Source: Tsuneonella troitsensis (lineage in GTDB: Bacteria > Pseudomonadota > Alphaproteobacteria > Sphingomonadales > Sphingomonadaceae). From it: 64,000 bases of DNA. Positions 1,611 to 17,069 of the stretch are shown here, in pieces (the first letter of the stretch is position 1; the number at the start of each line of letters is the position of its first letter). The notes under the pieces are model-generated. The model made no database searches and had not been told where the DNA came from. It worked only from the letters and a program-made list of their open reading frames with translations. The DNA lies in NCBI RefSeq assembly GCF_001441535.1, contig NZ_LMAU01000001.1, forward strand, positions 1-64,000. Direction: 5' to 3'. Both the position numbers and the translations under genes were made by a program.

Positions 1611-2434
1611 GCGCGGCCGAAGATCAGGATGACAAGGGCGAGGTGCTCCCCGTCCCCTACAAGGTGGGATACGGGCGTCCGCCGACCGAGCACCGGTTCC
1701 GCAAGGGTTACTCGGGCAACCCGCGGGGCCGTCCGCGCGGCGCGCGCAACAAGCCGAAGATAGATACCGGTATCGGCATGCGCGGCGCCGAGGCGTACCT
1801 GCGCGCCGAAGCCTACCGGATGGTCACGCTGCGCGAGGGGGACAATGTCATCGAGCTGCCGGCCATCCAGGCGGTGTTCCGGGCGATGGGCGTGGCAGCA
1901 ATGAAGGGCAACCGGTTTGCCCAGCGCACGCTGGCCGACATGATCACCAGGGTCGAGCACGAGGACTTCACTTCGCGGCTCGATGCGTTCGGGAAGTGGG
2001 CCGAGTACAAGCACGAATGGGGCGAAGCGATTGAACGGGCCAAGCTAGCGGGCAGGGAGCCCCCACGCCCGATCCCCCATCCCGATGATGTGCTGCTTGA
2101 TCCACACACCGGAGATGTGAAGTTCGCTGGCCCGCTGACGAAGGAAGCCCGCGACCGGCTCGACCAGGCGCTCATGCGCAGGGCCGACGCGCAGGAGGAG
2201 GTGACATACTTTTCGCAGAAGTATCGCGAGACCAGCGATGAGCAGTTGAAGGCCCGCTACCTCGAAGACTGGCACTGGGAGCAGCGCATGTTCGACATCA
2301 TCAACGATACCGTCTCCGAGCGCTACAAGGTCAAGCTCGAGAACCGGTCCTACAAGCAGGGGGCCTCTCGAACAGGCGAAGCGCTCGAGGAAATGAGGGT
2401 GAACAAGCGGCTCAGGGACGAGTATGTGGAGTGA
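1607..2434 (+). CDS. DUF5681 domain protein
   Basis: 275-residue soluble protein. Residues about 30-50 hold the DUF5681 signature (RKGYSGNPRGRPRGARN), a short basic motif found in proteins that accompany phage-type methylases and terminases; the rest is charged and helical with no domain I recognise. The ATG overlaps the methyltransferase stop in ATGA, so the two are translationally coupled, and the pair is likely a remnant of a phage or integrative element. The molecular function of the family is not known. No frameshift is visible here. Confidence 0.75.
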   Translation: MSAAEDQDDKGEVLPVPYKVGYGRPPTEHRFRKGYSGNPRGRPRGARNKPKIDTGIGMRGAEAYLRAEAYRMVTLREGDNVIELPAIQAVFRAMGVAAMKGNRFAQRTLADMITRVEHEDFTSRLDAFGKWAEYKHEWGEAIERAKLAGREPPRPIPHPDDVLLDPHTGDVKFAGPLTKEARDRLDQALMRRADAQEEVTYFSQKYRETSDEQLKARYLEDWHWEQRMFDIINDTVSERYKVKLENRSYKQGASRTGEALEEMRVNKRLRDEYVE

Positions 2435-2459
2435 GGTCTGCTTTGCGCCACATCAGCGG

Positions 2460-2615
2460 TCATCCCGGCAACTGTTTCGTCGTCCCGATAGCGGTCGTTT
2501 GACGGCGAAGATCGTTATGACCTGCTCGCCTGCTCCCGCGTCGCGAACGCGGTGCGCAATTGCGGATGTCGAGTCGGCCAGGAAAGATCGGCTCTCCGCA
2601 GTCAGGACAGAACAT
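2460..2615 (-). CDS. Possible small zinc-ribbon protein or remnant (51 aa)
   Basis: Short minus-strand frame whose start reads MFCPDCGEPIFPGRL, similar in style to the CxxCGExI zinc finger of DksA/TraR proteins, but the second pair of cysteines is absent and the C-terminal half is basic and featureless. It may be a decayed finger gene or chance. The 207-base gap between the DUF5681 gene and the next gene holds nothing else. Confidence 0.25.
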   Translation of the reverse strand: MFCPDCGEPIFPGRLDIRNCAPRSRRGSRRAGHNDLRRQTTAIGTTKQLPG

Positions 2616-2641
2616 GGCTGTTTCTTCTCATCGCAGTTCTC

Positions 2642-3103
2642 TCACATGACCGTCGCGCTGATGATTGCGATCGCTATTCCGAAGAACGCAACGGCTACGG
2701 GCACGACCAGTACCTGGCCGTAGACTTCGCTGCGGGTGAGGGGGCCGAACGCGGTCTGGAGGACGGCTCCGGTGCGCTGCAACGGACTGTCGGGTTGGGC
2801 GGGACCCTGGCGCAGGAGGGCCCGCGCAGTTCCGAAGAACATCGCGACATAGAACGCAGAAATCGCAATCGCGAACGCCGCACTTGCTCCGCCGGTCGCA
2901 CCGAGCAGGGCGAGCAAAAAGACCACGTAGGAACCGATCATCGTAATCCAGACGGCGGAGGAAAGCTCGAATAGCCGCGCTTCCGGCGTAAGCACTCGCA
3001 CGTTATCGTTCGCTTCGGTTTCGACGACGAGCGACGGACCCGGCGTACCGGTGCGAATGTCCCGAACCGGGTCAAGCTGCGAGCGGAGAAGTGCTTCAGG
3101 CAT
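2642..3103 (-). CDS. Small integral membrane protein, unknown function
   Basis: 153 residues, not a family I recognise. About 45 polar N-terminal residues precede four predicted membrane segments arranged as two hairpins (about 50-70, 75-95 and two near the C-terminus, VVPVAVAFFGIAIAI). Its start overlaps the 3' end of the truncated haemoglobin gene by 8 bases, so it is the last gene of the alternative oxidase operon and is probably produced with it. A role in respiratory or NO physiology is only inferred from position. Confidence 0.6.
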   Translation of the reverse strand: MPEALLRSQLDPVRDIRTGTPGPSLVVETEANDNVRVLTPEARLFELSSAVWITMIGSYVVFLLALLGATGGASAAFAIAISAFYVAMFFGTARALLRQGPAQPDSPLQRTGAVLQTAFGPLTRSEVYGQVLVVPVAVAFFGIAIAIISATVM

Positions 3104-3596
3104 GAGGTAGGTCCTTTCCTGCGCGCCCGGCGGCCAATCCGTCGCGGCGCATTGCGATCGCTGTCAGAAGGCTGTCGGCGATCATCCGGGCGCGTCCCCC
3201 GACGAGTTGGGTCGCCTCGCGGTCACCCTCTGCCTCGCGGAGCGTTTCGTAGAAGAGTTCAAGCCAACGAGCGAAGTGTTGCAGTTCGAGGCCCGGGATC
3301 GCGAGGTGCTTGAGCATCGGGTTGCCCGAGAACTCGCCGCTGTTGTGCAGGACCGAACGCCAGAAGGTCTTCATGCGCGCCAGGTGCGGAGGCCAGTCGG
3401 CAATCCGCTCGGCGAAGATCGGACCGAGCAGGTCGTCCTCGCGGATCTTTCCGTAGAAATTCTCCACCAGATCATCGATGAATTCGGCATCCACTCCGAT
3501 GGATTCAGCAGCTTCGCGCTTCTCGGCACGCTTGAGCGCTGCAATCTCGCGGGTGTCGGGTCGCTCCTCTTCCGGAAGCGCAGACTGCATGGTCAT
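3096..3596 (-). CDS. Group III truncated haemoglobin
   Basis: 166 residues, a haem protein that binds O2/NO in the cytoplasm. The globin core spans about 35-155: FYGKIREDDLLGPIF (B/C region), WPPHLARMKTFW, and NPMLKHLAIPG, in which His97 matches the proximal F8 histidine of Campylobacter Ctb; HFARWLELFYE follows. A polar N-terminal extension of about 30 residues is present. The ATG overlaps the stop of the DUF1971 gene (ATGA), with an in-frame alternative ATG two codons on. Lying in an operon with alternative oxidase and a YeaR-like protein, it probably takes part in NO or low-oxygen protection. Confidence 0.88.
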   Translation of the reverse strand: MTMQSALPEEERPDTREIAALKRAEKREAAESIGVDAEFIDDLVENFYGKIREDDLLGPIFAERIADWPPHLARMKTFWRSVLHNSGEFSGNPMLKHLAIPGLELQHFARWLELFYETLREAEGDREATQLVGGRARMIADSLLTAIAMRRDGLAAGRAGKDLPHA

Positions 3597-3931
3597 GCCC
3601 CGTCCCCTTCAGGGCGTTCGTCGGCTTGTAGTGGACCGGTCGGCTCCCGCAGGAACCGGACGTGGAAGCGCACCTCGCCAACGGGTTCGACACGGTGCAG
3701 GATCGTGGGCTCGACGATACCCGCGTCACCGCCAGCCACGAGAGTCTGTCCGCGATCCGCCCGGCGGGGGTCGGTCACCAGGTAGCGGAGCTGACCGCTC
3801 TCGATTTCGATCAGGCCCCAGACTCCTTCTTTCGTCGAGTGATCGCTCAGCAACCCTGCGGGAACGGTCGTTTCGGTGAAAGTCGCGGTTTGTTTGTAGT
3901 CCTCTAGGCCGGGGGGAAGCGCGGGTTTCAT
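3593..3931 (-). CDS. DUF1971 (YeaR/TehB-like) protein
   Basis: 112 residues. The sequence YKQTATFTETTVPAGLL followed by DHSTKEGVWG is the signature of DUF1971, a small cupin-like fold; E. coli YeaR, a member, is induced by nitrate and NO. It is sometimes labelled tellurite-resistance related, which I would not rely on. Start chosen at ATG 3931, one base after the receiver gene stop and matching the family's usual start; a longer frame opens at 4033 but overlaps that gene. Third gene of the oxidase operon. Confidence 0.8.
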   Translation of the reverse strand: MKPALPPGLEDYKQTATFTETTVPAGLLSDHSTKEGVWGLIEIESGQLRYLVTDPRRADRGQTLVAGGDAGIVEPTILHRVEPVGEVRFHVRFLREPTGPLQADERPEGDGA

Positions 3932-3932
3932 G

Positions 3933-4292
3933 TCATGCTGCCTTCTGTTGTCCGAGCAAGGCCGAAATCGCGTCGCTGAGCTCGTCCCCGAGCAGGGGCT
4001 TCTCGATGATGTGCGCCCCAAGCGCTCCTGCACGCGTTCGAAACAGCGGGTTCGGATTCGTCACGAGGATGATGGCCAGGGCCGCGCATCCTCTTTCCCG
4101 AAGCTCCGCAAGGAAGCGGAGACCGTCGTCCTGATAGCTCTGGTCGATGACCAGAAGACCCTCTGCCGGGATTCCGCTGCTCGCTCGGTCGCCTTCGATA
4201 GTCGTCAACCCTTCGGTGGCGAGCGAGAACTGCAGGGAGGAAAGGACCGGTGCATCGTCGATGAACAATCCGATCACGTTCGAGCGGTCCAT
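3933..4292 (-). CDS. Stand-alone response-regulator receiver protein
   Basis: 119 residues, a single receiver-like domain with no output domain. FIDD near the N-terminus gives the acidic pair, VID (about residue 48) the likely phospho-acceptor Asp, ILVTN the Thr switch and EKP the conserved Lys-Pro. The domain is divergent, with a shortened loop after the acceptor. Start ATG 4292 lies 30 bases after the oxidase stop. Its place between alternative oxidase and DUF1971, opposite fixLJ, suggests a phosphate sink or modulator in the same circuit; this is inference. Confidence 0.7.
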   Translation of the reverse strand: MDRSNVIGLFIDDAPVLSSLQFSLATEGLTTIEGDRASSGIPAEGLLVIDQSYQDDGLRFLAELRERGCAALAIILVTNPNPLFRTRAGALGAHIIEKPLLGDELSDAISALLGQQKAA

Positions 4293-4321
4293 GTCCGTTG
4301 CTCCTTGCTCGCGGCCCTCGA

Positions 4322-5011
4322 TCAGGCCGCCTTCTTCCAGTTGGGTTCGAGAGCGACGTGCGGCGGGCACTCGGCCACCTGGGCCACCGGCAGGCCGGCG
4401 AGTTCGTTGGCGAAGCCGTGGTTCACATCGCGGTGGTGTGCCTCATCGGCCCGGACCACGAGGACGACGTCGCGTAGGGTCGCGTCGTCGGGCAGCCCCC
4501 AGTAGCGCTTGGCAATCTCTGGTGCCGGTACGTTCTCGCTGCGTCCCTCGTCGATTTCGGAGAGGTAATGGGTGTAGCTGATCACCGCCTCTTCCTCGAA
4601 GTAGCCGACGACCCGGTGCGCGGTCTTGCTGCTGACCAGGTAGAGCCCGAAGAAAAACAGGTAAAACACCCACTGGACGCCGATGATGACCGCTCGCTCG
4701 AACAGCGTAGGCTTGGAAATCTCGATGAAGGTCATCAGGTGCATGCGCTCATTCTCGGCTTCGTCCATGAGCGTCTTGATCCAGCCCTTGTCGTCGCACA
4801 TGCGGCGCAGGCAGGCGAGGTGGTTGATCGTCGCCCCGACCATTCCGGGTACGGCAGCTACCGTCTCGAGCACGACGGCGCGGTGGCCGTAACGCTCGGC
4901 AAAGAAGGTATCGGCGCACCAGCGAAGCGCCTTGGTGAAACCGAATGCGATCCGGTCCGACATCCCGCGAGGGTTGTGGTGAACGCCCAGATCGATGAAG
5001 GGTGCAGTCAT
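4322..5011 (-). CDS. aox: Alternative oxidase (cyanide-insensitive ubiquinol oxidase)
   Basis: 229 residues. Diiron ubiquinol oxidase passing electrons from quinol to O2 without proton pumping, bound to the inner face of the membrane. All iron ligands are visible: Glu49 (LET), Glu88 and His91 (NERMHL), Glu140 in FEEEA, and Glu190/His193 in RADEAHHRD; a hydrophobic stretch at 107-127 is the membrane-contact region. Start ATG 5011 has GGAGAAG upstream; a longer frame to 5035 lacks such a site. First gene of a five-gene operon, divergent from fixL. Bacterial AOX is uncommon and known from Novosphingobium and other marine alphaproteobacteria; it tolerates NO and cyanide. Confidence 0.95.
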
Positions 5012-5094
5012 TGAAACTTCTCCGCATGGCGGCACGTTGAACTGAAAGCGCCGCTGCTGGAGTTGATCTAGGCCTTTGAACAGGGACGCGAAAT

Positions 5095-6641
5095 TTGGAT
5101 GATAACCCTACGGAGGGCGCCCTAAGGGCCTTACCGGAGCCTCCCCCCGCAAATCTTATGAGCCGGTTCCTGCCGCGCCTGTCGTTTGCGGCCGCTCTGT
5201 TGCTGGCACTCGTCGCGATCGGCGCCGGCGCGGGGATCCGGCTGCTCTTTGCCGAAGAACTGGCGCAGCGCGCGACGTTCATCTTCTTCGTCCCGGGCGT
5301 GGTCCTAGCCAGTGCCATGTCGGGCCTGCGCGCAGGCGCCGTTGCTGCCGTCGCCGGAGCGGCCGCGGGCTTGTGGTGCGACGCCCTCGCGGGACCGATT
5401 ACCGAGGGCAGCTACATCGCGGCGGTCGCGTTCGTGGTCATCGGCGTTTCGGTCGCTTTCGGAGGCGAGTGGTTCCAGCGAGCAAGGGTTGAAACCGAAG
5501 CATCGGCATCGATCCTGGCGCGCCGGGAAGCGCACTTGCAGTCGATCCTCGACACGGTGCCCGATGCCATGGTCGTGATCGACGAGGCCGGAGCGATCAG
5601 CGAGTTCAGCCCGACTGCCGAGCGCATGTTCGGCTGGAAGGCGTCCGAAGTGGCTGGCCGCAATGTCGCCTTGCTGATGCCCGAGCCCTATCGCAGCGCG
5701 CACGACGGCTATCTCGCGCGATACTATCGCACCGGCGAGAAGAGGATCATCGCAAGGGCAGGATTGTGGTGGGATCACGGCGGGACGGTTCCACTTTCCC
5801 GATCGAACTCGCCGTCGGGGAAATGGCTGCGGACGGACAGCGCTTTTTCACCGGGTTCATCCGCGACCTGACCGAGCGGCAGCAGGCCGAGGCGAGGCTG
5901 CAGGAACTGCAGACCGAGCTGGTCCATATCTCGCGTCTGACCGCCCTGGGTGAGATGGCCTCTGCGCTCGCACACGAAATCAACCAGCCGCTGTCGGCGA
6001 TTGCGAACTACCTGAAGGGCACGCGCCTCCTCCTAGGGCGCGACGAGGTCCCGCACGAGCGCGTGGCCGAGGCAGTGGAAAGGGCCGCGACCGAAGCCTT
6101 GCGCGCCGGAGAGATCATCCGCCGGTTGCGGGATTTCGTGGCGCGGGGCGAGACAGAGCGGACCATCGAAAGCCTGCCCAAGCTGGTCGAAGAGGCGAGC
6201 GCACTCGCCCTGGTCGGCGCAAAGGAGCACGGCATTCGAGTGCAATACGCATTCAATCCGGCAGTCGATCTTGTCCTCGCCGACAAGGTGCAGATCCAGC
6301 AGGTGGTTCTTAATCTCGTGCGCAACGCGGTCGATTCGCTTGCGGAATCGGAAGCGGGTGAGCGCCACCTGACAATCGGGATAGAGGCGGCGGACGAGGG
6401 AATGGCGCTTGTCCGGATAAGCGACACCGGGCCGGGCATCGAGCCCGACGTGGCCGAGAAACTGTTCCAGCCCTTCATCACGACCAAGCGAACCGGCATG
6501 GGCGTGGGCCTCTCCATTTCGCGCACGATCGTCGAAGCGCACGGCGGCAGGATATGGGGAAAGCGAGCGCCGGATGGCGGCGCCGAATTCGGCTTTACTC
6601 TGCAGGCAGTCGCAGATGAGGAACTCTACGATGGAGAATGA
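5095..6641 (+). pseudogene. fixL: FixL-type haem-PAS sensor histidine kinase, frameshifted
   Basis: Oxygen-sensing kinase: N-terminal membrane part like DUF4118 (several hydrophobic segments, residues 27-125), haem PAS domain (about 150-260), then HisKA (H in LAHEINQP) and HATPase (DTGPGI, GMGVGLS). The PAS keeps the haem His (SAHDGY, residue 203) and, 20 residues later, the Arg matching Arg220 of Bradyrhizobium FixL. The frame breaks at about 5752 in what should be RIIGKGRIVVG: one G is missing, so the kinase half is out of frame with the sensor half. It could be a sequencing error or a real defect. Start is TTG 5095 (AGGGA upstream) or ATG 5158. The 3' end overlaps fixJ by 11 bases. Confidence 0.82.
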
Positions 6642-7254
6642 GGCGGTGAAGGACGCGATCGTTTACGTGATCGATGATGATGAGGGCGCACGTCAGTCGC
6701 TGGAGTTCCTGATCGACGTCGCCGGGATACGGGTGCGCTCGTTTTCGTCTGCGGACGCCTTCCTGCAATCCGCACCGCCGCTCGCTCGCGCCTGCATCGT
6801 TACGGACGTTCGGATGCCCGGCATGAGCGGGATCGATCTCGCCACCAGGATGTCGGAGCGGGATGGCGGGGCTCCCGTTATCGTCATCACCGGCCATGCC
6901 GACGTTCCGCTGGCGATTCAAGCGATGAAGGCCGGTGCCGCCGATTTCATCGAAAAGCCCTTCGACGACGAAACGATCCTATCCGCTATCCGCACGGCGC
7001 TGGCGCGAAGCGGAGAAGAGGAGGAGGTGCAATCGCGGCGGCGCGAAGTTCTTTCCCGGATCGAGACCCTGTCCGGCCGAGAACGCGAAGTCGTCGACGG
7101 CCTCGTCGAAGGCAAGGCCAACAAGGTCATCGCGATCGACCTCGACATCAGTCCACGGACGGTCGAGGTCTACCGGGCGAACGCGATGATGAAGATGCAG
7201 GCGAAGACGCTCTCCGACCTGGTAAGGATGATGACGATCGCGACGATCGTCTGA
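6631..7254 (+). CDS. fixJ: FixJ-family two-component response regulator
   Basis: 207 residues. Receiver domain at 1-120: VIDDDEG acidic pair, phospho-acceptor Asp in [10 protein letters not shown], Thr in VIVITGH, Lys in EKPFDD. A linker leads to a LuxR-type helix-turn-helix ([19 protein letters not shown] ... [10 protein letters not shown]). Start ATG 6631 is chosen because the receiver begins just after it; an in-frame ATG at 6616 is possible. It overlaps fixL, so the pair is co-produced. In rhizobia FixJ-P activates fixK and microaerobic genes; here the divergent oxidase operon is the natural nearby target, but no binding site could be assigned with confidence. Confidence 0.9.
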
Positions 7255-7356
7255 TTAGGGCTGAGGCCGAATTACCAGAGTCGGCTTCGGCTGAATGCTG
7301 ATCAGAAGCTGACAGTCCGTAACCGGCTCAAAAGCATCCACACTCTGCGTTCTGTA

Positions 7357-7386: not shown

Positions 7387-8019
7387 ATGGGATACTCTCG
7401 ATTTGACACCGCCATCCAGGCACGCGCGGCATGGAACGCCGGCAAGACCGTCGGCACCAAGCGACCGCTGACGCAGAAGCAGATTTGGGCGATCCGCTTT
7501 CACTTAGATCGCGAAGGGCGACTACGGGACAAGGCGCTCTTCGACCTCGCAATCGACAGCAAGCTGCGTGGCTGCGATCTGGTGAAGATCAAAATTGGTG
7601 ACGTGGTAGCCGGCGCGGATGTTCGAAACCGTGCGATCGTCATCCAGCAAAAGACCAATCGTCCAGTCCAGTTCGAGCTAACTGCGGATGTCCGCGCGAC
7701 CCTGATCGCTTGGCTGGAGCGCCGAAAAGGTTCGACGCATGAATATCTGTTTCCGAGCCGAATTGATCACCATGGCCATATGAGCACACGCCAGTATGCC
7801 AGGCTGGTCGATGAATGGGTAACGGCCATTGGCCTGCGCAAGTCTGAGTACGGCACGCATTCGCTGCGGCGGACCAAAGCTGCGATGATCTACAGGGCCA
7901 CAGGCAATATCAGGGCAATTCAAATCCTGCTCGGTCACACCAAGATCGAGAACACGGTCCGTTACCTTGGCGTCGACGTCGAAGATGCATTGCTGTTGGC
8001 AGAGCGGACCGAAATCTGA
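7387..8019 (+). CDS. Tyrosine recombinase / integrase family protein
   Basis: 210 residues, DNA strand-exchange enzyme. Catalytic residues are all present: Arg61 (KLRGCD), Lys89 (QQKT), His158-x-x-Arg161 (HSLRR), His184 (LLGHTK) and Tyr193 (VRYLG). The usual N-terminal arm-binding and SAM-like domains are reduced to about 45 residues, so it is a short-form recombinase like those widely found in alphaproteobacteria, not a full phage integrase. ATG 7387 is preceded by GAGGAG. No att site or excisionase is visible beside it. It marks the start of a section (to about 10.7 kb) that reads as lower in GC than the rest. Confidence 0.85.
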   Translation: MGYSRFDTAIQARAAWNAGKTVGTKRPLTQKQIWAIRFHLDREGRLRDKALFDLAIDSKLRGCDLVKIKIGDVVAGADVRNRAIVIQQKTNRPVQFELTADVRATLIAWLERRKGSTHEYLFPSRIDHHGHMSTRQYARLVDEWVTAIGLRKSEYGTHSLRRTKAAMIYRATGNIRAIQILLGHTKIENTVRYLGVDVEDALLLAERTEI

Positions 8020-10843: not shown

Positions 10844-10944
10844 GACCTATAAAGCGGGCGACTACATGCGGCCGCATCTGAAAGCTTATCCTCCCGGTCA
10901 TGGATGAGGAAAGGCGACGCACTCGCCGATGCCATCAACCAGGA

Positions 10945-11742
10945 TCAGCAGTGGCCTGCCGCGCGGTGTTCAGGCGCGCAGGTAGGCGCATCGTCGGCCT
11001 CCGCCGTAGGTTCGGGCGAAGCCTTGGGGGCCGCAGCCCTGACGGGAGCCGGTTTCGCCGCAGTGGTCTTCGTAGCGTCAGGCTTTGCGGTGGCGGTCGG
11101 AGCAGCGACTGCGTTCTTCGTTTGCGTAGCCGGCGTCGGCTCGCCCTTCAGCATCGCTTCCACAAGGGCGATTTCCTCCAGCTGCTTTGCACGCGTCTGT
11201 TCGATCTGCGCCCGCACGGCGCCAGTCGCGCCGCTCGCAAGCGCGATGTCCGACATCGCGACGGCGCCGCGATGGTGCGCCAGCATCTTGGTAAGGTAGG
11301 TCTCTGAAGGCGTCGCGCCCGATGCCGCCATCATGTCAGAGTTCATTTCGGTCATCGCAGCTTCGTAGAGCTTGGCGCTGGCGGGATTAGCCGCACCATT
11401 GCGGGCCAGCGCCTTGAGCGCTTCGATCTCGGCGCCCTGCTTTTCGATCGTCATCTGCGCCATTTTCGCGAGATCGGCTGTGGGCTCTAGGCCCAGCGCG
11501 ATCCGCGACATGTTGATCGCGCCTTCATGGTGCGCGATCATTTTCTTGACCCAGGTGTCGGCGGCATCGACGCCGACAGCGTCCTTCATGGCCTTGTCCA
11601 TCGCCATCTCGGACTCAGCGTAGGGGCCGTCCATCGTCATCGCAGCATCTGGGGCGGTGTCTTCGGCAGGCTGTTCGACGCTTCCGCAGGCGCCCAGAGA
11701 TGCGAGCAGCGCAAGTGCGGCAATTCCGGTGAGTTTGGTCAT
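10945..11742 (-). CDS. DUF305 lipoprotein with two DUF305 repeats and C-terminal Cys-His motif
   Basis: 265 residues. Lipobox LGAC gives Cys19 as the lipidated residue. Two ferritin-like DUF305 units follow, each with the core MIAHHEGAI (about 69) and MLAHHRGAV (about 153), metal-associated helical repeats common in copper-resistance loci. An Ala/Pro/Thr linker of about 55 residues leads to CAPEHRAAGHC, the very last residues, which matches the five C-x-x-HAAMGHC repeats of the CopB protein in the same operon. Last gene of the copper operon; a periplasmic metal-binding role is inferred. Confidence 0.85.
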   Translation of the reverse strand: MTKLTGIAALALLASLGACGSVEQPAEDTAPDAAMTMDGPYAESEMAMDKAMKDAVGVDAADTWVKKMIAHHEGAINMSRIALGLEPTADLAKMAQMTIEKQGAEIEALKALARNGAANPASAKLYEAAMTEMNSDMMAASGATPSETYLTKMLAHHRGAVAMSDIALASGATGAVRAQIEQTRAKQLEEIALVEAMLKGEPTPATQTKNAVAAPTATAKPDATKTTAAKPAPVRAAAPKASPEPTAEADDAPTCAPEHRAAGHC

Positions 11743-11774
11743 TGTGTATCTCCGTGATCCTAGGGCGTATCGGG

Positions 11775-12257
11775 TCAGAGGCGGTCCATGATCCGCTTCA
11801 TCTCGGCAATTTCATCTTTCTGAGCCTGGATGATCTCGCGGCAGAGCCGGCGTATCTCAGGGTCGGTAAGCCTGGCTTCCTCGCACATCAGAATAGCCCC
11901 TGAGTGGTGCGGGATCATCGAACGCAGGAACTGGTCATCGCCAACGAGGCTCTGTTGCCGGATGCCGACGAGCGACAGGACAAAGATCGCTGCAAACGCC
12001 ACATAGAGCGCGGCGTTGAGCTTCCGACTGCGATACATACCTCCCATTGTCGCAAGCATGATCGCGCCCATCGGCGCCCACATCACGAGGGCCATATAGA
12101 AGAAATTCACGTTCTGGATGAACTCGCCCCAGGTCCAGATCATCGCGAACATGGCGACGTACATCACCAGCAGGCTGAGGCCGAGATTGACGGCCAGCAT
12201 CATATAAGGCTTCGAGCCGCCGCCACCGGAATGCGCGGACTTCGCGTGGTCTTCCAT
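11775..12257 (-). CDS. DUF305 membrane protein
   Basis: 160 residues. A Gly/His N-terminus (HAKSAHSGGGG) is followed by three membrane segments (about 19-43, 52-72, 82-100) and a C-terminal DUF305 unit with MIPHHSGAILMCEEA, then a helix rich in charged residues. The His-His-x-Gly motif is the supposed metal site. It starts 12 bases after the DUF2231 gene and belongs to the copper operon. Function of the family is not established; metal handling is inferred from context. Confidence 0.85.
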   Translation of the reverse strand: MEDHAKSAHSGGGGSKPYMMLAVNLGLSLLVMYVAMFAMIWTWGEFIQNVNFFYMALVMWAPMGAIMLATMGGMYRSRKLNAALYVAFAAIFVLSLVGIRQQSLVGDDQFLRSMIPHHSGAILMCEEARLTDPEIRRLCREIIQAQKDEIAEMKRIMDRL

Positions 12258-12269
12258 CGGTCGTTCTCC

Positions 12270-12959
12270 TTACCAGTTCAGGTGGTCGATGCCGTGCACC
12301 AGCGCGCCGCCGAACCATCCCTGCACGAGGATCGCTGCCGTTAGGATCGACAGCCCTACGATCATGGCTGAGCCGCGGTCCTGCTCGGGGCGTCTCAGCG
12401 CAAACACTCCCAAGGCAAACGCGCCGATCCCGATCCCGGTCCCAAGCCAGCGGTGGCTCTGCATGACCCAATCGTCGAGGCCGAGTACGAAGCCGCCGCT
12501 CAGCCAGCCGGAAAGAAGGGCGAACGGTGCGGTCACCCCCGCAGTCACCACGAGGAACTGGACGGGCTTGGCAAACCCCGGCCGCTTGCGGCCAACGATG
12601 GCGGTGAAGAGCGCCGCAGGGATAAAAGCGATCGGGAAATGCACTAGCATCGGATGGAAGCGGCCAAACCAGTCGAGCAGTCGCACACCAAAGCTCTGGG
12701 GTGGCTCCTCGGCATTGGCCATGCCAGTCATGGCCGCGGCATGGCCTGGCATCGACATGTCGTGATCCATGGGAGGCGCCTGTGCCGATCCACCCGCCAC
12801 CGCACGCTTCGCCTCGCGTTGCGCTGCCTCCTGCTTGGCCTTGTGATCCTTGTGCGCCGAGGCGGGCGCTACCGGCATGGAAAGGATGGCGGTCGCTGCC
12901 AATAACGCCAACACCGACCGCGCCAGCAATGCATGCGACCATCGGATGACTGAGATCAT
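12270..12959 (-). CDS. DUF2231 membrane protein with His/Met-rich exported segment
   Basis: 229 residues. An N-terminal signal ends near PASA; a short His/Met-rich stretch (HKDHK, MDHDMSMPGHAAAMTGM) could hold metal in the periplasm; four membrane helices with HPMLVHFPIAF are the DUF2231 core (about 95-225), ending HGIDHLNW. The ATG overlaps the stop of a possible 29-residue upstream peptide (ATGA). DUF2231 proteins are often found beside copper and cytochrome genes; biochemical role unknown. Confidence 0.82.
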   Translation of the reverse strand: MISVIRWSHALLARSVLALLAATAILSMPVAPASAHKDHKAKQEAAQREAKRAVAGGSAQAPPMDHDMSMPGHAAAMTGMANAEEPPQSFGVRLLDWFGRFHPMLVHFPIAFIPAALFTAIVGRKRPGFAKPVQFLVVTAGVTAPFALLSGWLSGGFVLGLDDWVMQSHRWLGTGIGIGAFALGVFALRRPEQDRGSAMIVGLSILTAAILVQGWFGGALVHGIDHLNW

Positions 12960-13045
12960 CCCATGCCTCCGTGGGCCTGCGCGCCGGATTGTGCATGACC
13001 AGGATCTCCCAGCGATCTTCGATCCGCGTAAGGACGCATCAGCAT
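12956..13045 (-). CDS. Possible 29-aa leader peptide
   Basis: ATG 13045 is preceded by a very good ribosome site (GGGGAGAAG). The peptide begins MLMRPYADRR and ends HAQSGAQAHGGMG, with His and Met near the end; its stop overlaps the DUF2231 start (ATGA), so translation would be coupled. It may be a true small protein or merely a device to carry ribosomes into the next gene. Coding status is uncertain because it is short. Confidence 0.35.
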   Translation of the reverse strand: MLMRPYADRRSLGDPGHAQSGAQAHGGMG

Positions 13046-13058
13046 TGTTCTTCTCCCC

Positions 13059-14330
13059 TCAGAACCAGAAGCGAATGCCCGCTAGGAAGCTGAAGCCTCC
13101 GGGCGATTCGCCTTCTTCACGCAGGAAATCACGCGTCATCCCGAAGGCGCGCTCATATTGGACGCCAACGTAAGGGGCGAACTCGCGGGCGATGTCGTAG
13201 CGCACCCGGACGCCGATCTCGGCATCGGTCAGCCCCGCGCCGACCCCGATGTCCTCGCTGCTTTGCGCCGCGAAATTGAGTTCGGCGCGCGGTTGCAGGA
13301 TAAGCTTCTGGGTGATGCGCTGGTCGTAATAGCCTTCCAACCGTCCTATCAGCTCGCCCCGGTCCGACAGGAACATCGCGCCTTCGACGTCGAAGAAGCC
13401 CGGTGCGAGACCCTCGAATCCGATGGTGGCGTAAACGCGCGACGGGTTGGGCTCGAAATCGTAGCGGATACCGGTCTGGAGATCGAAATAGGGTCCGATG
13501 GCGCGGCTGTAGAGCGCCTGGACTTCGGCAGATTCGACGCCAGCGCCAAACTCACCTTCTCCTTCGGTCTTGACGACCAGGCGGTTGATGTCGCCGCCAT
13601 ACCAGGCCTCGCCGCCCCATTCGTAGGCATCGCGCCCATCCTTGACCTTCACCTCGGCGATGTTGAGTATCGCCATGAAGAAGTTCTGGCCGCCGTGATG
13701 CAGCGAGAGATGGTGTCGCCCCATCGCCATCGCGGACGGTCCGTAGATCGCATCTGCCGCGTAGTCGGTGGGCACCGGCGGAGCCGATCCCGAGCCCGCT
13801 GGCAAGTCCGTTCCCTCGGCGCCGATAGTCGCGGCCGGGGTGCAATGCCCCATAGCCGCGTGTTCCGGAGAACATGCAGCCGGCTGCGCGGGTTGCGGCG
13901 CCGGAAGCGAGCAATGCCCCATCGCCGCATGCTCCGGTGTACATGTCGACTGGCTAGGCTGCACCTGCTGCGGTGTCGCCGGGGCAGGCGAGGGAAGCGT
14001 ACAGTGACCCATAGCGGCATGCTCGGGCGTGCAGGCCGGTTGAGCCTGAGGCGTCGCCTCGGGAGCCGTGGGTGGCGCCGCCGCGGCCGTGCAATGCCCC
14101 ATCGCCGCGTGGTCCGGAGAGCACGCAGGTTGGCTCTGTCGGGCCGGTTCCGACGTTGCTGCGGGCAAAGGCTTGGGCAGCGTGCAATGGCCCATGGCGG
14201 CGTGTTGGGGCGTGCAGGTCAGCGCCGCCGGAGCGGACTGCTTGGGCGCCGCGGCCTGGTCCTGGGCGAGTGCAGGCACGCCGGCGAAGGCCGCCAGCGC
14301 AAGGAGCGGAAGTCTGTGAAGCGAGATCAT
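13059..14330 (-). CDS. copB: Copper resistance protein CopB with five Cys-His repeats
   Basis: 423 residues. Signal peptide to about residue 22 (ends PALAQ), then a low-complexity Pro/Ala region with five units of C-[ST]-P-[QDE]-HAAMGHC at about 39-49, 70-80, 100-110, 130-140 and 153-163, followed by the CopB beta-barrel domain (about 190-423: GRHHLSLHHGGQNFF, EVKVKDGRDAYEWGGEAWYGGD, ending FLAGIRFWF, an outer-membrane type terminus). CopB sits in the outer membrane and takes part in periplasmic copper sequestration. The repeats are not the Met-rich type of Pseudomonas CopB. Start ATG 14330 lies one base after the copA stop, with GGAG upstream. Confidence 0.9.
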   Translation of the reverse strand: MISLHRLPLLALAAFAGVPALAQDQAAAPKQSAPAALTCTPQHAAMGHCTLPKPLPAATSEPARQSQPACSPDHAAMGHCTAAAAPPTAPEATPQAQPACTPEHAAMGHCTLPSPAPATPQQVQPSQSTCTPEHAAMGHCSLPAPQPAQPAACSPEHAAMGHCTPAATIGAEGTDLPAGSGSAPPVPTDYAADAIYGPSAMAMGRHHLSLHHGGQNFFMAILNIAEVKVKDGRDAYEWGGEAWYGGDINRLVVKTEGEGEFGAGVESAEVQALYSRAIGPYFDLQTGIRYDFEPNPSRVYATIGFEGLAPGFFDVEGAMFLSDRGELIGRLEGYYDQRITQKLILQPRAELNFAAQSSEDIGVGAGLTDAEIGVRVRYDIAREFAPYVGVQYERAFGMTRDFLREEGESPGGFSFLAGIRFWF

Positions 14331-14331
14331 C

Positions 14332-16338
14332 TTACGCGTCTCCATTGTCGGGACGCACGGTGACGACACGCATCATCCCGGCAGTCATGTGATAGAGATT
14401 GTGACAGTGGAACGCCCAGTCGCCCTGTGCGTCGAGGGTGACGTCGAAGGTCGCCGTCCCGCCGGGCTGAACGTTCACCGTGTGCTTGCGAGGGCTAAGG
14501 GCGCCGTGCCCGGTCACCAGCTCGAAGAAGTGGCCGTGCAGGTGGATGGGGTGCTGCATCATCGTGTCGTTGACCAGCCGCACCCGCACGCGCTCGTTAT
14601 GGCGGAACGGGATCGGCTCGGCCGGCTCGCTCATTTTCACCCCGTCGAACGACCACATGTAGCGTTCCATGTTGCCGGTGAGGTGGATGTCGAGCTTACG
14701 CGACGGCGCGCGCACGTCGGGATTGCGATCGAGCGCAATGAGATCGCGGTAGGTCAGTACCCGATGGCCGACGTCTTCCAGGCCCGTTCCCGGATCGCCC
14801 ATCCGGTCGACCGGCATCGGCGAGATCGTCTGCACGCCCGGGTTCCTGTCGACCTGCGGCGCGTTGGCGAAGTCGCGCATGCCCATCGAGCCGTGGTCCA
14901 TCGGAGCGGCAGCATGGCCTGCTGACGCTGGCGCGGGCATCGAACGGCCCCTCGCGGCGTGATCGACGGGAGTGACGGCTGTGGCCGGGTCGGCGCTCGG
15001 GCCGTGCCCCATCGCCGCGTGATCCATGCCCGCCATGCCCGCTGCCGTTGCCGTTGCCGCCGCGGCGCCTGTCTCTTTCCAGCCGGTCAGCTTCCACAAC
15101 TCGCCGGAGGCGTTCTGTCGGGCAGTCGGATCGACGCCGCGCGTCTTCGCAGGGGCAGTTGATCCAATGCCTATCGCGCCATGATCCATTCCGCCATGTC
15201 CCATGCCGGAATGATCCATGTCGCCCATGCCCATGTCCTTCATGGTGAGCAGCGGGCGCGGGCGCAGCGGCGGAACCGGCGCACTCATACCCTCGCGCGG
15301 GGCAAGCGTGGCCCGGCCCAGGCCTGACCGGTCGCTCGCCTCGCTGACGAAGCTGTAGGCCCGATCTTCGGGAGTAATGACGACGTCGTAGGTCTCCGCG
15401 GTGCCGATCTGGAACTCTTCCACGGTCACGGGCCGCACATTGAGGCCGTCGGCCTGCACGACCGTTATTGGGAGGCCGGGTATGCGGATGTTGAAGGTCG
15501 TCTGCGCCGAGGCGTTGATGACGCGGAGCCTTACCCGCTCACCTGGCGTGAACAGGCCGGTCCAGTTGTCGTAAGGTCCGAACCCGTTGATGGTGAACGC
15601 GTAGGTCGAGCCGGTGACGTCCGCGATGTCCGCCGCGTCCATCCGCATTTGCGCCCATTCCCACCGCTCCTGCGCGGTAAGGTCCTTGCCGGCCATCAGA
15701 CCCGACAGCGTCATCCGCTGGCGGTTGAAATAGGGCCCGCCCATCTGCTTGAGCTTGCGGTAGATCGTCGCGCCTGCAAGCGGACTGTGGTCCGACAGAA
15801 CCAGCACATGTTCGCGGTCATAGGCCACCGGATCGGGCCCGGCAGGATCGATCACGATCGGACCGTAGACGCCGTCCTCTTCCTGATAGGCGCTGTGGCT
15901 GTGGTACCAGTAGGTCCCCGCGTGGCTGAGGTCGAACTCGTAGTCGAAGGTCGAGCGCGGCATGATGCCGGGAAAGCTGACGCCTGGCACACCGTCCATC
16001 TCGAACGGCACCAGGAGGCCGTGCCAGTGGATCGAGCTGTCTTCGTCGAGCGTGTTCTGCACGCGCAGGCGGACGCGCTGGCCTTCCTTCAGGCGGATCA
16101 GCGGTCCCGGCACGGTGCCGTTGATGCCGATCGCACGGCTGACCTTGCCGTCGACCTCGACGCTGACCTGGCCGATGGCGAGCGAGATGTCGTTGCCACT
16201 GACGGTAGCCAGGGGCCGGACCAGACCTATCGAGAGAGGTTGGGCCCAGGCGGGCAGGGCCTGCGCCAGGCCGAAGCCTGCGCCGGAGACGGCGGCGGCG
16301 CGTAGCAGCGCACGCCGACCGAGGACGAGTTCATTCAT
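14332..16338 (-). CDS. copA: CopA-type multicopper oxidase (copper resistance)
   Basis: 668 residues. Periplasmic Cu(I) oxidase with a Tat-like signal (GRRALLRAAAVSG). Copper ligands: SIHWHG, YWYHSHSA, HPIHLHGHF and WAFHCHNLYHMTAGM, i.e. complete type 1-3 sites. Between the second and third cupredoxin domains lies a Met/His-rich insert (MKDMGMGDMDHSGMGH, MAGMDHAAMGHG, MDHGSMGMRD), typical of PcoA/CopA Cu(I)-binding loops. Start ATG 16338 is chosen for the AAGGA site; a frame extends to 16359. Directly followed by copB. Confidence 0.95.
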   Translation of the reverse strand: MNELVLGRRALLRAAAVSGAGFGLAQALPAWAQPLSIGLVRPLATVSGNDISLAIGQVSVEVDGKVSRAIGINGTVPGPLIRLKEGQRVRLRVQNTLDEDSSIHWHGLLVPFEMDGVPGVSFPGIMPRSTFDYEFDLSHAGTYWYHSHSAYQEEDGVYGPIVIDPAGPDPVAYDREHVLVLSDHSPLAGATIYRKLKQMGGPYFNRQRMTLSGLMAGKDLTAQERWEWAQMRMDAADIADVTGSTYAFTINGFGPYDNWTGLFTPGERVRLRVINASAQTTFNIRIPGLPITVVQADGLNVRPVTVEEFQIGTAETYDVVITPEDRAYSFVSEASDRSGLGRATLAPREGMSAPVPPLRPRPLLTMKDMGMGDMDHSGMGHGGMDHGAIGIGSTAPAKTRGVDPTARQNASGELWKLTGWKETGAAAATATAAGMAGMDHAAMGHGPSADPATAVTPVDHAARGRSMPAPASAGHAAAPMDHGSMGMRDFANAPQVDRNPGVQTISPMPVDRMGDPGTGLEDVGHRVLTYRDLIALDRNPDVRAPSRKLDIHLTGNMERYMWSFDGVKMSEPAEPIPFRHNERVRVRLVNDTMMQHPIHLHGHFFELVTGHGALSPRKHTVNVQPGGTATFDVTLDAQGDWAFHCHNLYHMTAGMMRVVTVRPDNGDA

Positions 16339-16415
16339 CGATGGATTCCTTGGGCTCACTGACAGCGACGACCGTCTTCCGACGGAGCAATGCCCCGCCG
16401 GAAGTCCAGTGCCGC

Positions 16416-16655
16416 TTAGTGGTGCGCGTGCCCGTCGGCCGGAGCCGCGGACTTCATATTATGGCCTGCGTGCGGGTCAGCCGAAGGTGCCGAAGTGCCG
16501 CCGGCGGGCTTGCCCGACATCTTGTCGCAGCACGCGCACTTCTCCTTCATCTTCTCGCAGCATTCCATCTTTGGCTTTTCAGCGGGAGCAGCCTGGGCGT
16601 GCGCGACGCCGGGAAGAGCGATCGCCAGTGCGACCGCGGTCATCAACTTGTTCAT
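16416..16655 (-). CDS. Small Cys/His-rich secreted metal-binding protein
   Basis: 79 residues: signal peptide (ends GVAHA), then KMECCEKMKEKCACCDKM with five cysteines in 13 residues, and a His-rich tail (DPHAGHNMK, DGHAHH). This is a probable periplasmic copper scavenger or chaperone. It lies 77 bases upstream of copA in the same direction. No named family recognised. Confidence 0.75.
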   Translation of the reverse strand: MNKLMTAVALAIALPGVAHAQAAPAEKPKMECCEKMKEKCACCDKMSGKPAGGTSAPSADPHAGHNMKSAAPADGHAHH

Positions 16656-16691
16656 GATCCTAAACTCCGTGAAATCTAAAAAAGAGCGATT

Positions 16692-17021
16692 TCACGCAAG
16701 TCTGGGAGGTGGAGTGGGCAGCTTTGCCAGGAAAGCGCGATGTTCGGACGAACGAAAGCCCGCAAGGATCGGTGCGTGAAAGGCTAGTCGCTCGACCGGG
16801 GCGGCACCGAGCGGCGTCACTGCAGAACACATCGCGATACAGCACTGCGTCATCGCGCCGGACCTGTCTTCGTCACCGGCATCCTCGTCGCCGCAATGCC
16901 CGGTTTGCGCCATCTCGCCATGATCCATCGGCATCGCCGCCATGGCCATGCCCGACTGCATCGCCAGCGGGGCGACCAGCATGGCAAGCGCAGCCAGGAG
17001 GAGATGGAGTCGGCGAAGCAT
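16692..17021 (-). CDS. Small secreted Met/His/Cys-containing protein of copper loci
   Basis: 109 residues. Hydrophobic signal sequence, then MAAMPMDHGEMAQTGHCGDED and TQCCIAMCSAV, and a Pro-rich end (LPTPPPRLA). Similar short proteins accompany copper operons in sphingomonads, from memory; no assigned function. Its GHC and MDHG pieces resemble those in CopA and CopB. It lies between the glutaredoxin-MauE gene (48-base gap) and the 79-residue protein. Confidence 0.7.
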   Translation of the reverse strand: MLRRLHLLLAALAMLVAPLAMQSGMAMAAMPMDHGEMAQTGHCGDEDAGDEDRSGAMTQCCIAMCSAVTPLGAAPVERLAFHAPILAGFRSSEHRAFLAKLPTPPPRLA

Positions 17022-17069
17022 CAGGGGGTGTCCTAGGCGTAGGCAAAAGAAGGGTCAAATTTCGTGCGG

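Follow-up and report, generated by a model that had tools for sequence, protein, structure and literature searches.

In nitrogen-fixing bacteria the FixL-FixJ pair is a textbook oxygen switch, the classical FixL responding to O2; in Escherichia coli, the DUF1971 protein YeaR is induced by NO and nitrate. A FixL-FixJ-FixT-FixK circuit is described from Sinorhizobium meliloti and Caulobacter crescentus: in one account, Caulobacter FixT blocks the autophosphorylation of FixL, is itself not seen phosphorylated and has a residue, C64, described as broadly conserved (PMC7078487), and another reports the motif CSNAATWT near -33 of fixK promoters (PMC4999443). The alternative oxidase (AOX) gene of Vibrio fischeri is under NsrR control, as cited in a further paper (PMC6472365). 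Here we analyse a 64,000-nucleotide stretch of the Tsuneonella troitsensis genome (contig NZ_LMAU01000001.1, positions 1 to 64,000; hereafter the window), in which fixLJ faces genes for an AOX, a single-domain receiver, a DUF1971 protein, a group III truncated haemoglobin (trHb3) and a membrane protein. Searches of an open-access library listed nothing recognisable as a description of such an AOX-trHb3-DUF1971-receiver set beside fixLJ.

The first arm of the locus lies on the minus strand and begins with aox (4322-5011, 229 aa; PF01786, E=1e-84), whose product covers positions 12-216 of the 216-position profile, i.e. is near full length, and retains the conserved E/EXXH regions: the NERMH, FEEEA and DEAHH/DEANH segments, presumably the diiron ligands, align across six homologues. 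It is followed by the receiver (3933-4292, 119 aa; FixT model NF051882, E=7e-9, 35.7 bits), the DUF1971 protein (3593-3931, 112 aa; PF09313, E=2.9e-22), the truncated haemoglobin (3096-3596, 166 aa; Bac_globin PF01152, E=1.4e-4) and a small membrane protein whose family is uncharacterised (2642-3103, 153 aa). The haemoglobin belongs to group III, its sole PDB match at E<=0.01 being 2ig3 (E=3.8e-17), which we take to be Campylobacter jejuni Ctb. An R. wittichii protein labelled as TatC, Swit_5297, aligns with it at 41% over 127 aa; hence we reject that label and regard the protein as a truncated haemoglobin. The membrane protein has no convincing Pfam family: none of six family members scanned against Pfam gave a match at E<=0.01 (best 0.017, for one member), and a distant relative is found in locus L075 (hhalign 94.8%), with a look-alike of that relative, judged by eye, in L080. 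From aox to the membrane protein, the intergenic distances are 29, 1, -4 and -8 bp; this packing supports the preliminary description of the five as one unit facing fixLJ, and they look like a single operon.

The second arm, on the plus strand, comprises fixL (5158-6641, from a predicted start codon) and fixJ (6631-7254, 207 aa). FixJ is the only one of 29 matches to NF006900 in the genome to exceed the cut-off (283.8 bits against 255). A fixL gene is indeed present opposite aox, as had been stated, but in this genome it is frameshifted: it is split into two open reading frames (5095-5871 and 5766-6641), which match positions 118-197 and 203-483 of NF041777, each under the 850-bit cut-off, and the break falls between about 5745 and 5766, within the haem-PAS domain. 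As the frames are split and the gene is one base short relative to the intact copy in a sister species (genome G295), we conclude that the haem domain is interrupted. The near-identical copies of the sister species are intact: G295 has a 515 aa frame, and an open 520 aa frame is present in both G295 and a second genome, G264. The PAS haem-ligand histidine and pocket arginines (S. meliloti positions 194, 200, 208 and 214) and the kinase His285 are kept in 22/22 intact homologues; in the window these residues are divided between two frames, with the haem-ligand histidine in the first piece and position 214 at the break. Barring a sequencing error, the frameshift should disconnect the sensor.

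Both arms lie within a cassette (2434-7331) that is shared between species. By blastn it is 98.5% identical to a stretch of G295 where the surroundings differ, and positions 3458-7331 are 99.3% identical to G264, whose cassette ends inside the trHb3 gene; both homologies stop at 7331. By comparison, identity between these genomes in the rpoB region is 87-89%. The right end of the cassette has a strong match in only three of seven genomes of the genus, namely the cassette carriers, and comparison of the cassette ends revealed no clear inverted repeat in common. An integrase gene (7387-8019) adjoins the cassette, and site-specific insertion by the integrase was considered. The comparison bears in two ways on the alternative that the window locus is a decaying passenger, in which FixJ has lost its kinase and the operon is silent or misregulated. 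Decay is favoured by the single base by which the PAS-coding region differs in length from copies about 99% identical, and by a G264 cassette that stops inside trHb3; on the other hand, the other six cassette genes of the window are open and 97.6-99.7% identical to their G295 counterparts, and a base-calling error is possible in a single assembly. We regard decay as a serious possibility, if short of an even chance, and one compatible, given the intact copies elsewhere, with the functional interpretation developed below.

The arrangement recurs well beyond these genomes, as the neighbourhood survey called for in the preliminary description brings out. In the family sample, FixLJ faces AOX at 23 of 55 AOX loci, the window included; overall it does so at 56 of 126 loci, plasmid-borne ones among them, once redundancy is removed (of 140 loci, 14 were discarded because their aox matches that of an earlier locus over its first 601 bases). 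With this recurrence in both samples the arrangement is more than chance, and the set is widespread, contrary to the lack of co-occurrence that the preliminary description named as a ground for refutation. Rhizorhabdus wittichii RW1 is an example of a strain whose copy is intact. In Brevundimonas-type loci aox occurs together with fixK and fixT. A further 14 AOX loci have an Rrf2-type gene nearby along with mostly the same effectors (trHb3 in 12/14, DUF1971 in 9/14).

Between the two arms the aligned intergenic regions conserve a FixJ-type box, TAGGGTTATCATCCAAATTT (5091-5110, minus strand), oriented toward aox. This 20-bp element precedes aox by about 90 bp and shares the register of the fixK promoter of S. 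meliloti; its part CCAAATTT matches CSNAATWT, which occurs exactly inside the best site of 26/56 FixLJ loci. Scored with a matrix trained on 21 sites (L038 and L039 are almost identical to the window and were excluded), a box of at least 12 bits precedes aox in 45/56 FixLJ loci, including 22/33 outside the training set, as against 0/14 Rrf2 loci, 0/10 loci with FixL elsewhere nearby and 9/46 other loci. The 11 FixLJ loci below this threshold comprise nine from Phenylobacterium/Caulobacter and two from Alphaproteobacteria MAGs. In the S. meliloti fixLJTK locus the best site lies 71 bp upstream of fixK and scores 8.2 bits, against 7.0 for the best site on the opposite strand. A strict pattern derived from the aox sites finds 23 sites in 22 of 397 genomes, all carrying FixLJ-AOX loci, and its reversed control none; 21 of the 23 precede aox (20 loci and the window), and the window box is the sole zero-mismatch match in its genome. 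Since the pattern was written from them, matches in the genomes that supplied aox sites arise by construction; the genomes new to the analysis are G313, G316, G338, G372 and G386. Given the position of the box between the arms and its co-occurrence with FixLJ, the earlier proposal that a haem sensor system drives the operon is probably right, the predicted box being the likely point of control by FixJ.

Sites of at least 10 bits also point at other genes: the flavohaemoglobin gene hmp (L041, L063, L076 and L133), the membrane-protein family (L036, L037, L075 and L080), the NO-reductase gene norB (L056 and L161) and fixK (L180, L182 and L183). The norB figure refers to two copies encountered as genes behind a box; these match Pfam NorB and no NCBIfam model at 1e-5. 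Altogether 54 box-like sites of this strength lie elsewhere than in an aox promoter; the genes just named account for 13 of them, and 41 have no recognised target. The hmp gene is found beyond fixJ in five FixLJ loci, of which L170 has no box before it; likewise, of four Brevundimonas-type fixK genes, that of L188 lacks one. The FNR/FixK motifs TTGA-N6-TCAA and TTG-N8-CAA are absent from all 23 intergenic regions examined, and we judge FNR/FixK control of the aox promoter unlikely. In 9/56 FixLJ loci a Crp/Fnr-type (FixK-like) gene is nevertheless encoded no more than 3 kb from aox, and five Sphingomonadales loci have one nearby; thus such a regulator sometimes accompanies the circuit. There is no fixK in the window cassette.

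These targets bear on what FixLJ senses here. The locus could be an ordinary low-oxygen FixLJ regulon, with AOX and haemoglobin as microaerobic genes and a signal that does not involve NO. Classical FixL answers O2 and the classical haem-pocket residues are kept in all intact homologues, such that low-oxygen control would explain much; moreover, in placing aox with fixK and fixT the Brevundimonas-type loci resemble standard FixLJ loci. However, hmp and norB, encoding NO enzymes, are among the boxed genes, mostly the same effectors turn up in Rrf2 loci, and AOX is described as the only oxidase whose Km for O2 clearly exceeds the Pasteur point (PMC6431628), which would be odd for low O2. In Sphingopyxis granuli TFA, whatever type of regulator acts there, NO is the main inducer of aox (PMC6472365). 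We therefore hold a purely low-oxygen role to be somewhat doubtful, and the NO/O2 theme suggested at the outset finds support.

All 17 receivers scanned match the FixT model NF051882 (best E=6e-12), far under its 150-bit cut-off, and for this reason we file the window protein (35.7 bits) as FixT-like rather than FixT; a Pfam search gave no match for the window copy. By hhalign, the receiver profile is closer to the FixJ receiver (1.6e-16) than to S. meliloti FixT (3.9e-10). A cysteine ahead of the phospho-Asp strand is present in 15/23 aligned rows and in S. meliloti FixT, and the window protein has leucine in what appears to be the register of C64. FixT-like genes lie within 3 kb in 45/56 FixLJ-AOX loci, 11 having none, against 3/70 other AOX loci. 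The rule that a FixT-like gene occurs exactly where FixLJ does is true of the family sample (22/22 FixLJ loci against 0/31 others) and fails in this wider set.

The preliminary description gave the circuit its own phosphate-accepting receiver; as a conserved role this is not supported, with 12 of the 17 FixT-like proteins being pseudo-receivers that lack a phosphotransfer residue. All five catalytic residues are kept in the window copy, for which phosphotransfer is consequently possible, and in 4/16 others; but with so many pseudo-receivers, glutamate in place of the phospho-Asp in 3/17 and the unphosphorylated, autophosphorylation-blocking FixT of Caulobacter, a phosphate sink or second output taking phosphate from FixL is improbable. 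By analogy with Caulobacter, the FixT-like protein is a likely brake on FixL.

We consider it fairly probable, judging from gene content and promoter elements, that the locus represents a FixLJ-FixT-like circuit, complete in itself, with a direct connection to an operon for NO-resistant respiration and NO removal. In this circuit, the membrane-anchored haem-PAS kinase FixL would phosphorylate FixJ once O2 no longer holds the haem; phosphorylated FixJ would bind the 20-bp box and turn on aox, the fixT-like gene and the genes for the DUF1971, trHb3 and membrane proteins. AOX may then sustain quinol respiration while NO poisons the haem-copper oxidases, and NO would be removed by trHb3 and, elsewhere, also by a flavohaemoglobin, a lone globin or an NO reductase. 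The FixT-like protein, product of the operon's second gene, would return to FixL and damp it. The sequences show the gene content, its conservation, the box, the linkage of box to FixLJ and the near-identity of the cassette between species; binding by FixJ, inhibition by the FixT-like protein and the part played by NO are inferred. More tentatively, and with less than an even chance, the FixL of the cassette may be an aerobic NO sensor: NO would displace the haem O2 and release the kinase from its O2 block, FixJ would induce AOX and O2-dependent NO removal by haemoglobins with O2 still available, and the FixT-like protein would provide the shut-off. If so, the Rrf2 (NsrR-like) and FixLJ AOX operons would be interchangeable NO switches, reading Fe-S damage and haem occupancy, respectively.

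The combination of sensor, brake, oxidase and haemoglobin thus makes it seem that a textbook oxygen switch has been reused against NO. The set appears to be a compact, transferable alphaproteobacterial one, with a haem gas sensor, a likely brake, an NO-resistant oxidase and a haemoglobin, and it is best read as a mobile circuit of the FixLJ-FixT-like kind that drives both respiration in the face of NO and the removal of NO. FixLJ seems rewired here into a small switch for NO-resistant respiration that has plasmid-borne copies and, likely, its own brake; its box is specific enough for pattern searches, and a parallel form of regulation uses an Rrf2-type gene. These features make three questions directly testable: whether FixL can read NO under aerobic conditions, what role FixT-like pseudo-receivers have in genera other than Caulobacter and Sinorhizobium, and how a single effector set comes under a different regulator. 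For the DUF1971 and membrane-protein families, genes of obscure role, the operon context suggests a likely place in NO defence.

The closest known system is the FixL-FixJ-FixT-FixK circuit of S. meliloti and C. crescentus, with which these loci share the His/Arg set of the haem-PAS kinase, FixJ, a FixT-like single-domain receiver and a box in the same register as in the S. meliloti fixK promoter. They differ in having an AOX/haemoglobin operon as output, apparently reached directly, the window cassette being devoid of fixK, and in occurring also on plasmids and in a cassette nearly unchanged between species. The NsrR-aox system of V. fischeri has the link between AOX and NO in common with them, and the Rrf2-type loci reported here pair AOX with trHb3, DUF1971 and Hmp; its regulator, however, is an Rrf2 protein in place of the haem two-component system of the FixLJ loci, and the Rrf2-type loci have neither a FixT-like gene nor a box (0/14). 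At the level of single components, E. coli YeaR has its Pfam domain in common with the window DUF1971 protein, with a different operon and regulator, and the group III globin of PDB 2ig3 is of the same family as the window haemoglobin, whose gene differs in belonging to an AOX operon that faces fixLJ.

The preliminary description had placed five minus-strand genes, for AOX, a receiver, a DUF1971 protein, a truncated haemoglobin and a membrane protein, opposite fixL and fixJ; ORF positions and profile matches bear this arrangement out. The five genes are spaced by 29, 1, -4 and -8 bp, and the sole PDB match of the globin is 2ig3, a group III truncated haemoglobin (trHb3). The closest relatives point to Tsuneonella, the AOX of T. 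rigui being 100% identical. Three genes of the haem-copper oxidase superfamily (PF00115, NO reductases included) are present in the host genome (2.9 Mb in 9 contigs), as are two Rrf2 genes above cut-off, both away from the cassette. The window's fixL consists of two halves in different reading frames: the gene is open in the same-genus genomes G264 and G295, and the window's copy aligns to either with a single gap and is one base short relative to that of G295. With one assembly to go by, this frameshift may be genuine or may reflect a base-calling error. Elsewhere, window 10913-17066 is duplicated in the same genome (C3:121064-127619, 84% identical), and an ORF at 13059-14369 carries repeats of TPEHAAMGHC-like motifs, which we take to resemble copper-resistance proteins.

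Within the family, AOX is present in 54 of 298 genomes (55 loci); fixL and fixJ face aox in 23 of these loci, all 23 with a FixT-like receiver. With 80 named loci, the best 80 of at least 559 confirmed in a single scan of GTDB species genomes, and five plasmid loci, the sample came to 140, or 126 once repeats were removed. These comprise 56 with FixL facing aox (FixLJ loci), 14 with an Rrf2-type gene within 2 kb (Rrf2 loci), 10 with FixL elsewhere nearby and 46 with neither. The set sought beside fixLJ recurs elsewhere: the FixT-like, trHb3 and DUF1971 genes occur together in 21 of the 56 FixLJ loci versus none of the 70 others, and the trHb3-DUF1971 pair in 24/56 FixLJ and 8/14 Rrf2 loci. Going by record titles, named loci of the FixLJ type belong to sphingomonad genera, Brevundimonas, Phenylobacterium and Caulobacter, the others to MAGs named to class or phylum level. 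On the AOX tree all 56 lie inside one supported 82-row group (95/99), together with one Rrf2 locus, and the FixLJ label requires 9 changes versus 41.4 in shuffles. Nine FixLJ loci have a Crp/Fnr (FixK-like) gene no more than 3 kb downstream of aox: four are of the Brevundimonas type, with FixK beside the FixT-like gene, and five are others. In L132, L140, L148, L161 and L170 (FixLJ-AOX loci) such a gene follows the operon, 27-38% identical to S. meliloti FixK, and is possibly an extra control layer.

Alignment of 23 fixL-aox intergenic regions revealed a conserved block with the consensus TAGGGACATCATCCAAATTT. A matrix trained on 21 sites places this box upstream of aox, at 12 bits or more, in 45 of the 56 FixLJ loci (22/33 of those outside the training set), 0/14 Rrf2 loci, 0/10 with FixL nearby and 9/46 of the rest; elsewhere, 32 positions in 3.97 million score as high. 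The box lies 72-109 bp from the aox start, and 87-95 bp in 34 of the 45. Over both strands of the fixLJTK locus on S. meliloti pSymA, the best site (8.2 bits; next 7.0) is 71 bp upstream of fixK, overlapping the end of TAAGTAGTTCCCCTTA near the published FixJ site TAAGTAATTTCCCTTA (PMC4999443). The box is also kept before aox where no fixL was found beside it, in L032 (plasmid pR1b, 78 bp upstream) and eight other loci, as if a FixJ encoded elsewhere worked in trans.

Outside aox promoters 54 sites reach 10 bits. Thirteen precede hmp (4), a membrane-protein family (4), norB (2) or fixK (3), and the six highest-scoring all stand before genes of the first two kinds; for the other 41 no target was recognised, 12 of them lying within the neighbourhoods L050 and L081. 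A strict degenerate pattern derived from the aox sites, run on 397 genomes, matches 23 sites spread over 22 of them; five of these 22 (G313, G316, G338, G372, G386) were new to the analysis, and the reversed control has no match. Of these sites 21 precede aox in FixLJ loci, the window among them; one precedes membrane-protein-like/Nfu genes in G200, which has the FixLJ-AOX locus L075, and one, in G240, sits at the edge of a contig; G240 also has a FixLJ-AOX locus. In L075 (10987-12235) and L080 (4835-6125) a strong box precedes a gene related to that of the membrane protein, with an Nfu-type Fe-S scaffold gene next in line; this uncharacterised family is perhaps linked to NO or Fe-S stress. 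A related pattern has one exact match in the window's genome and one with 3 mismatches; hence, the strain's regulon may consist of the aox operon alone.

All 17 aligned receivers, including the window's, match the FixT model, 12 the FixJ model and 8 Pfam Response_reg; that of the window has no Pfam match, though the FixT model matches. Formal FixT membership does not extend to these receivers. Their profile is closer to FixJ's receiver than to S. meliloti FixT, and descent from a FixJ-like receiver is therefore likely. The first acidic residue is retained in 5/17, the phospho-Asp in 14/17 and all five catalytic residues in 5/17, the window's included; the other 12 are pseudo-receivers as defined in PMC12632262. 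Caulobacter FixT stops FixL autophosphorylation and was not itself seen phosphorylated (PMC7078487).

The window and G295 share one strong blastn match in the fetched 17 kb (2434-7331, 98.5%); with G264 (12 kb fetched) the match is 3458-7331 (99.3%), starting within trHb3. Since the flanks differ and the 4.7-kb rpoB region is only 87.3% (G295) and 89.1% (G264) identical, the simplest reading is that the cassette was recently exchanged among three species. The fixL and fixJ of same-genus G126 and G184 are 73-74% identical to the window's, no more. We infer that the cassette moves as a unit. R. wittichii RW1 and Sphingobium xenophagum carry comparable sets on plasmids that are both predicted to be conjugative; these sets include a lone globin gene but no membrane-protein gene, and no membrane-protein match was found in L031, the R. 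wittichii locus. The near-identical T. rigui cassette (L038/L129, G264) ends within trHb3 at window position 3458, and in the fetched stretch we found neither the remainder of that gene nor the gene for the membrane protein. A short tyrosine integrase gene (PF00589, 7387-8019) to the right of the shared segment and a DNA methylase gene (PF01555, 768-1610) to its left are candidate movers.

NO and O2 compete for the FixL haem, and NO inhibits the kinase less than O2 does. Several lines favour an NO-facing output: NO enzymes stand behind the box, namely flavohaemoglobin (L041, NF009805, 556.7 bits) and NorB (L056 and L161, PF22085; no NCBIfam model matched at 1e-5); the effectors of Rrf2 loci are mostly those of FixLJ loci; AOX is described as having low O2 affinity (PMC6431628); and aox of Sphingopyxis granuli TFA is reported to rise 450-fold in anoxia with nitrate, 17-fold when nitrate was absent or narG was mutated, and 70-fold in anoxia when NO was supplied in place of nitrate (PMC6472365). 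Swit_5297 (L031 9093-9476, pSWIT01) is annotated as TatC, yet aligns to the window's truncated haemoglobin. In TFA, SGRAN_3394, labelled TatC in print, adjoins nsrR in an operon reported among the strongest NO-induced, and by analogy may be a haemoglobin too.

In the titles and abstract openings of open-access journal papers, and in the passages of those cited here, we found nothing that describes AOX together with FixLJ or FixT; the two papers that mention FixJ, alternative oxidase and nitric oxide together both concern, by title, legume symbiosis. The cassette is real and widespread, apparently mobile, and probably a variant of the FixLJ-FixT circuit with a new NO-facing output.
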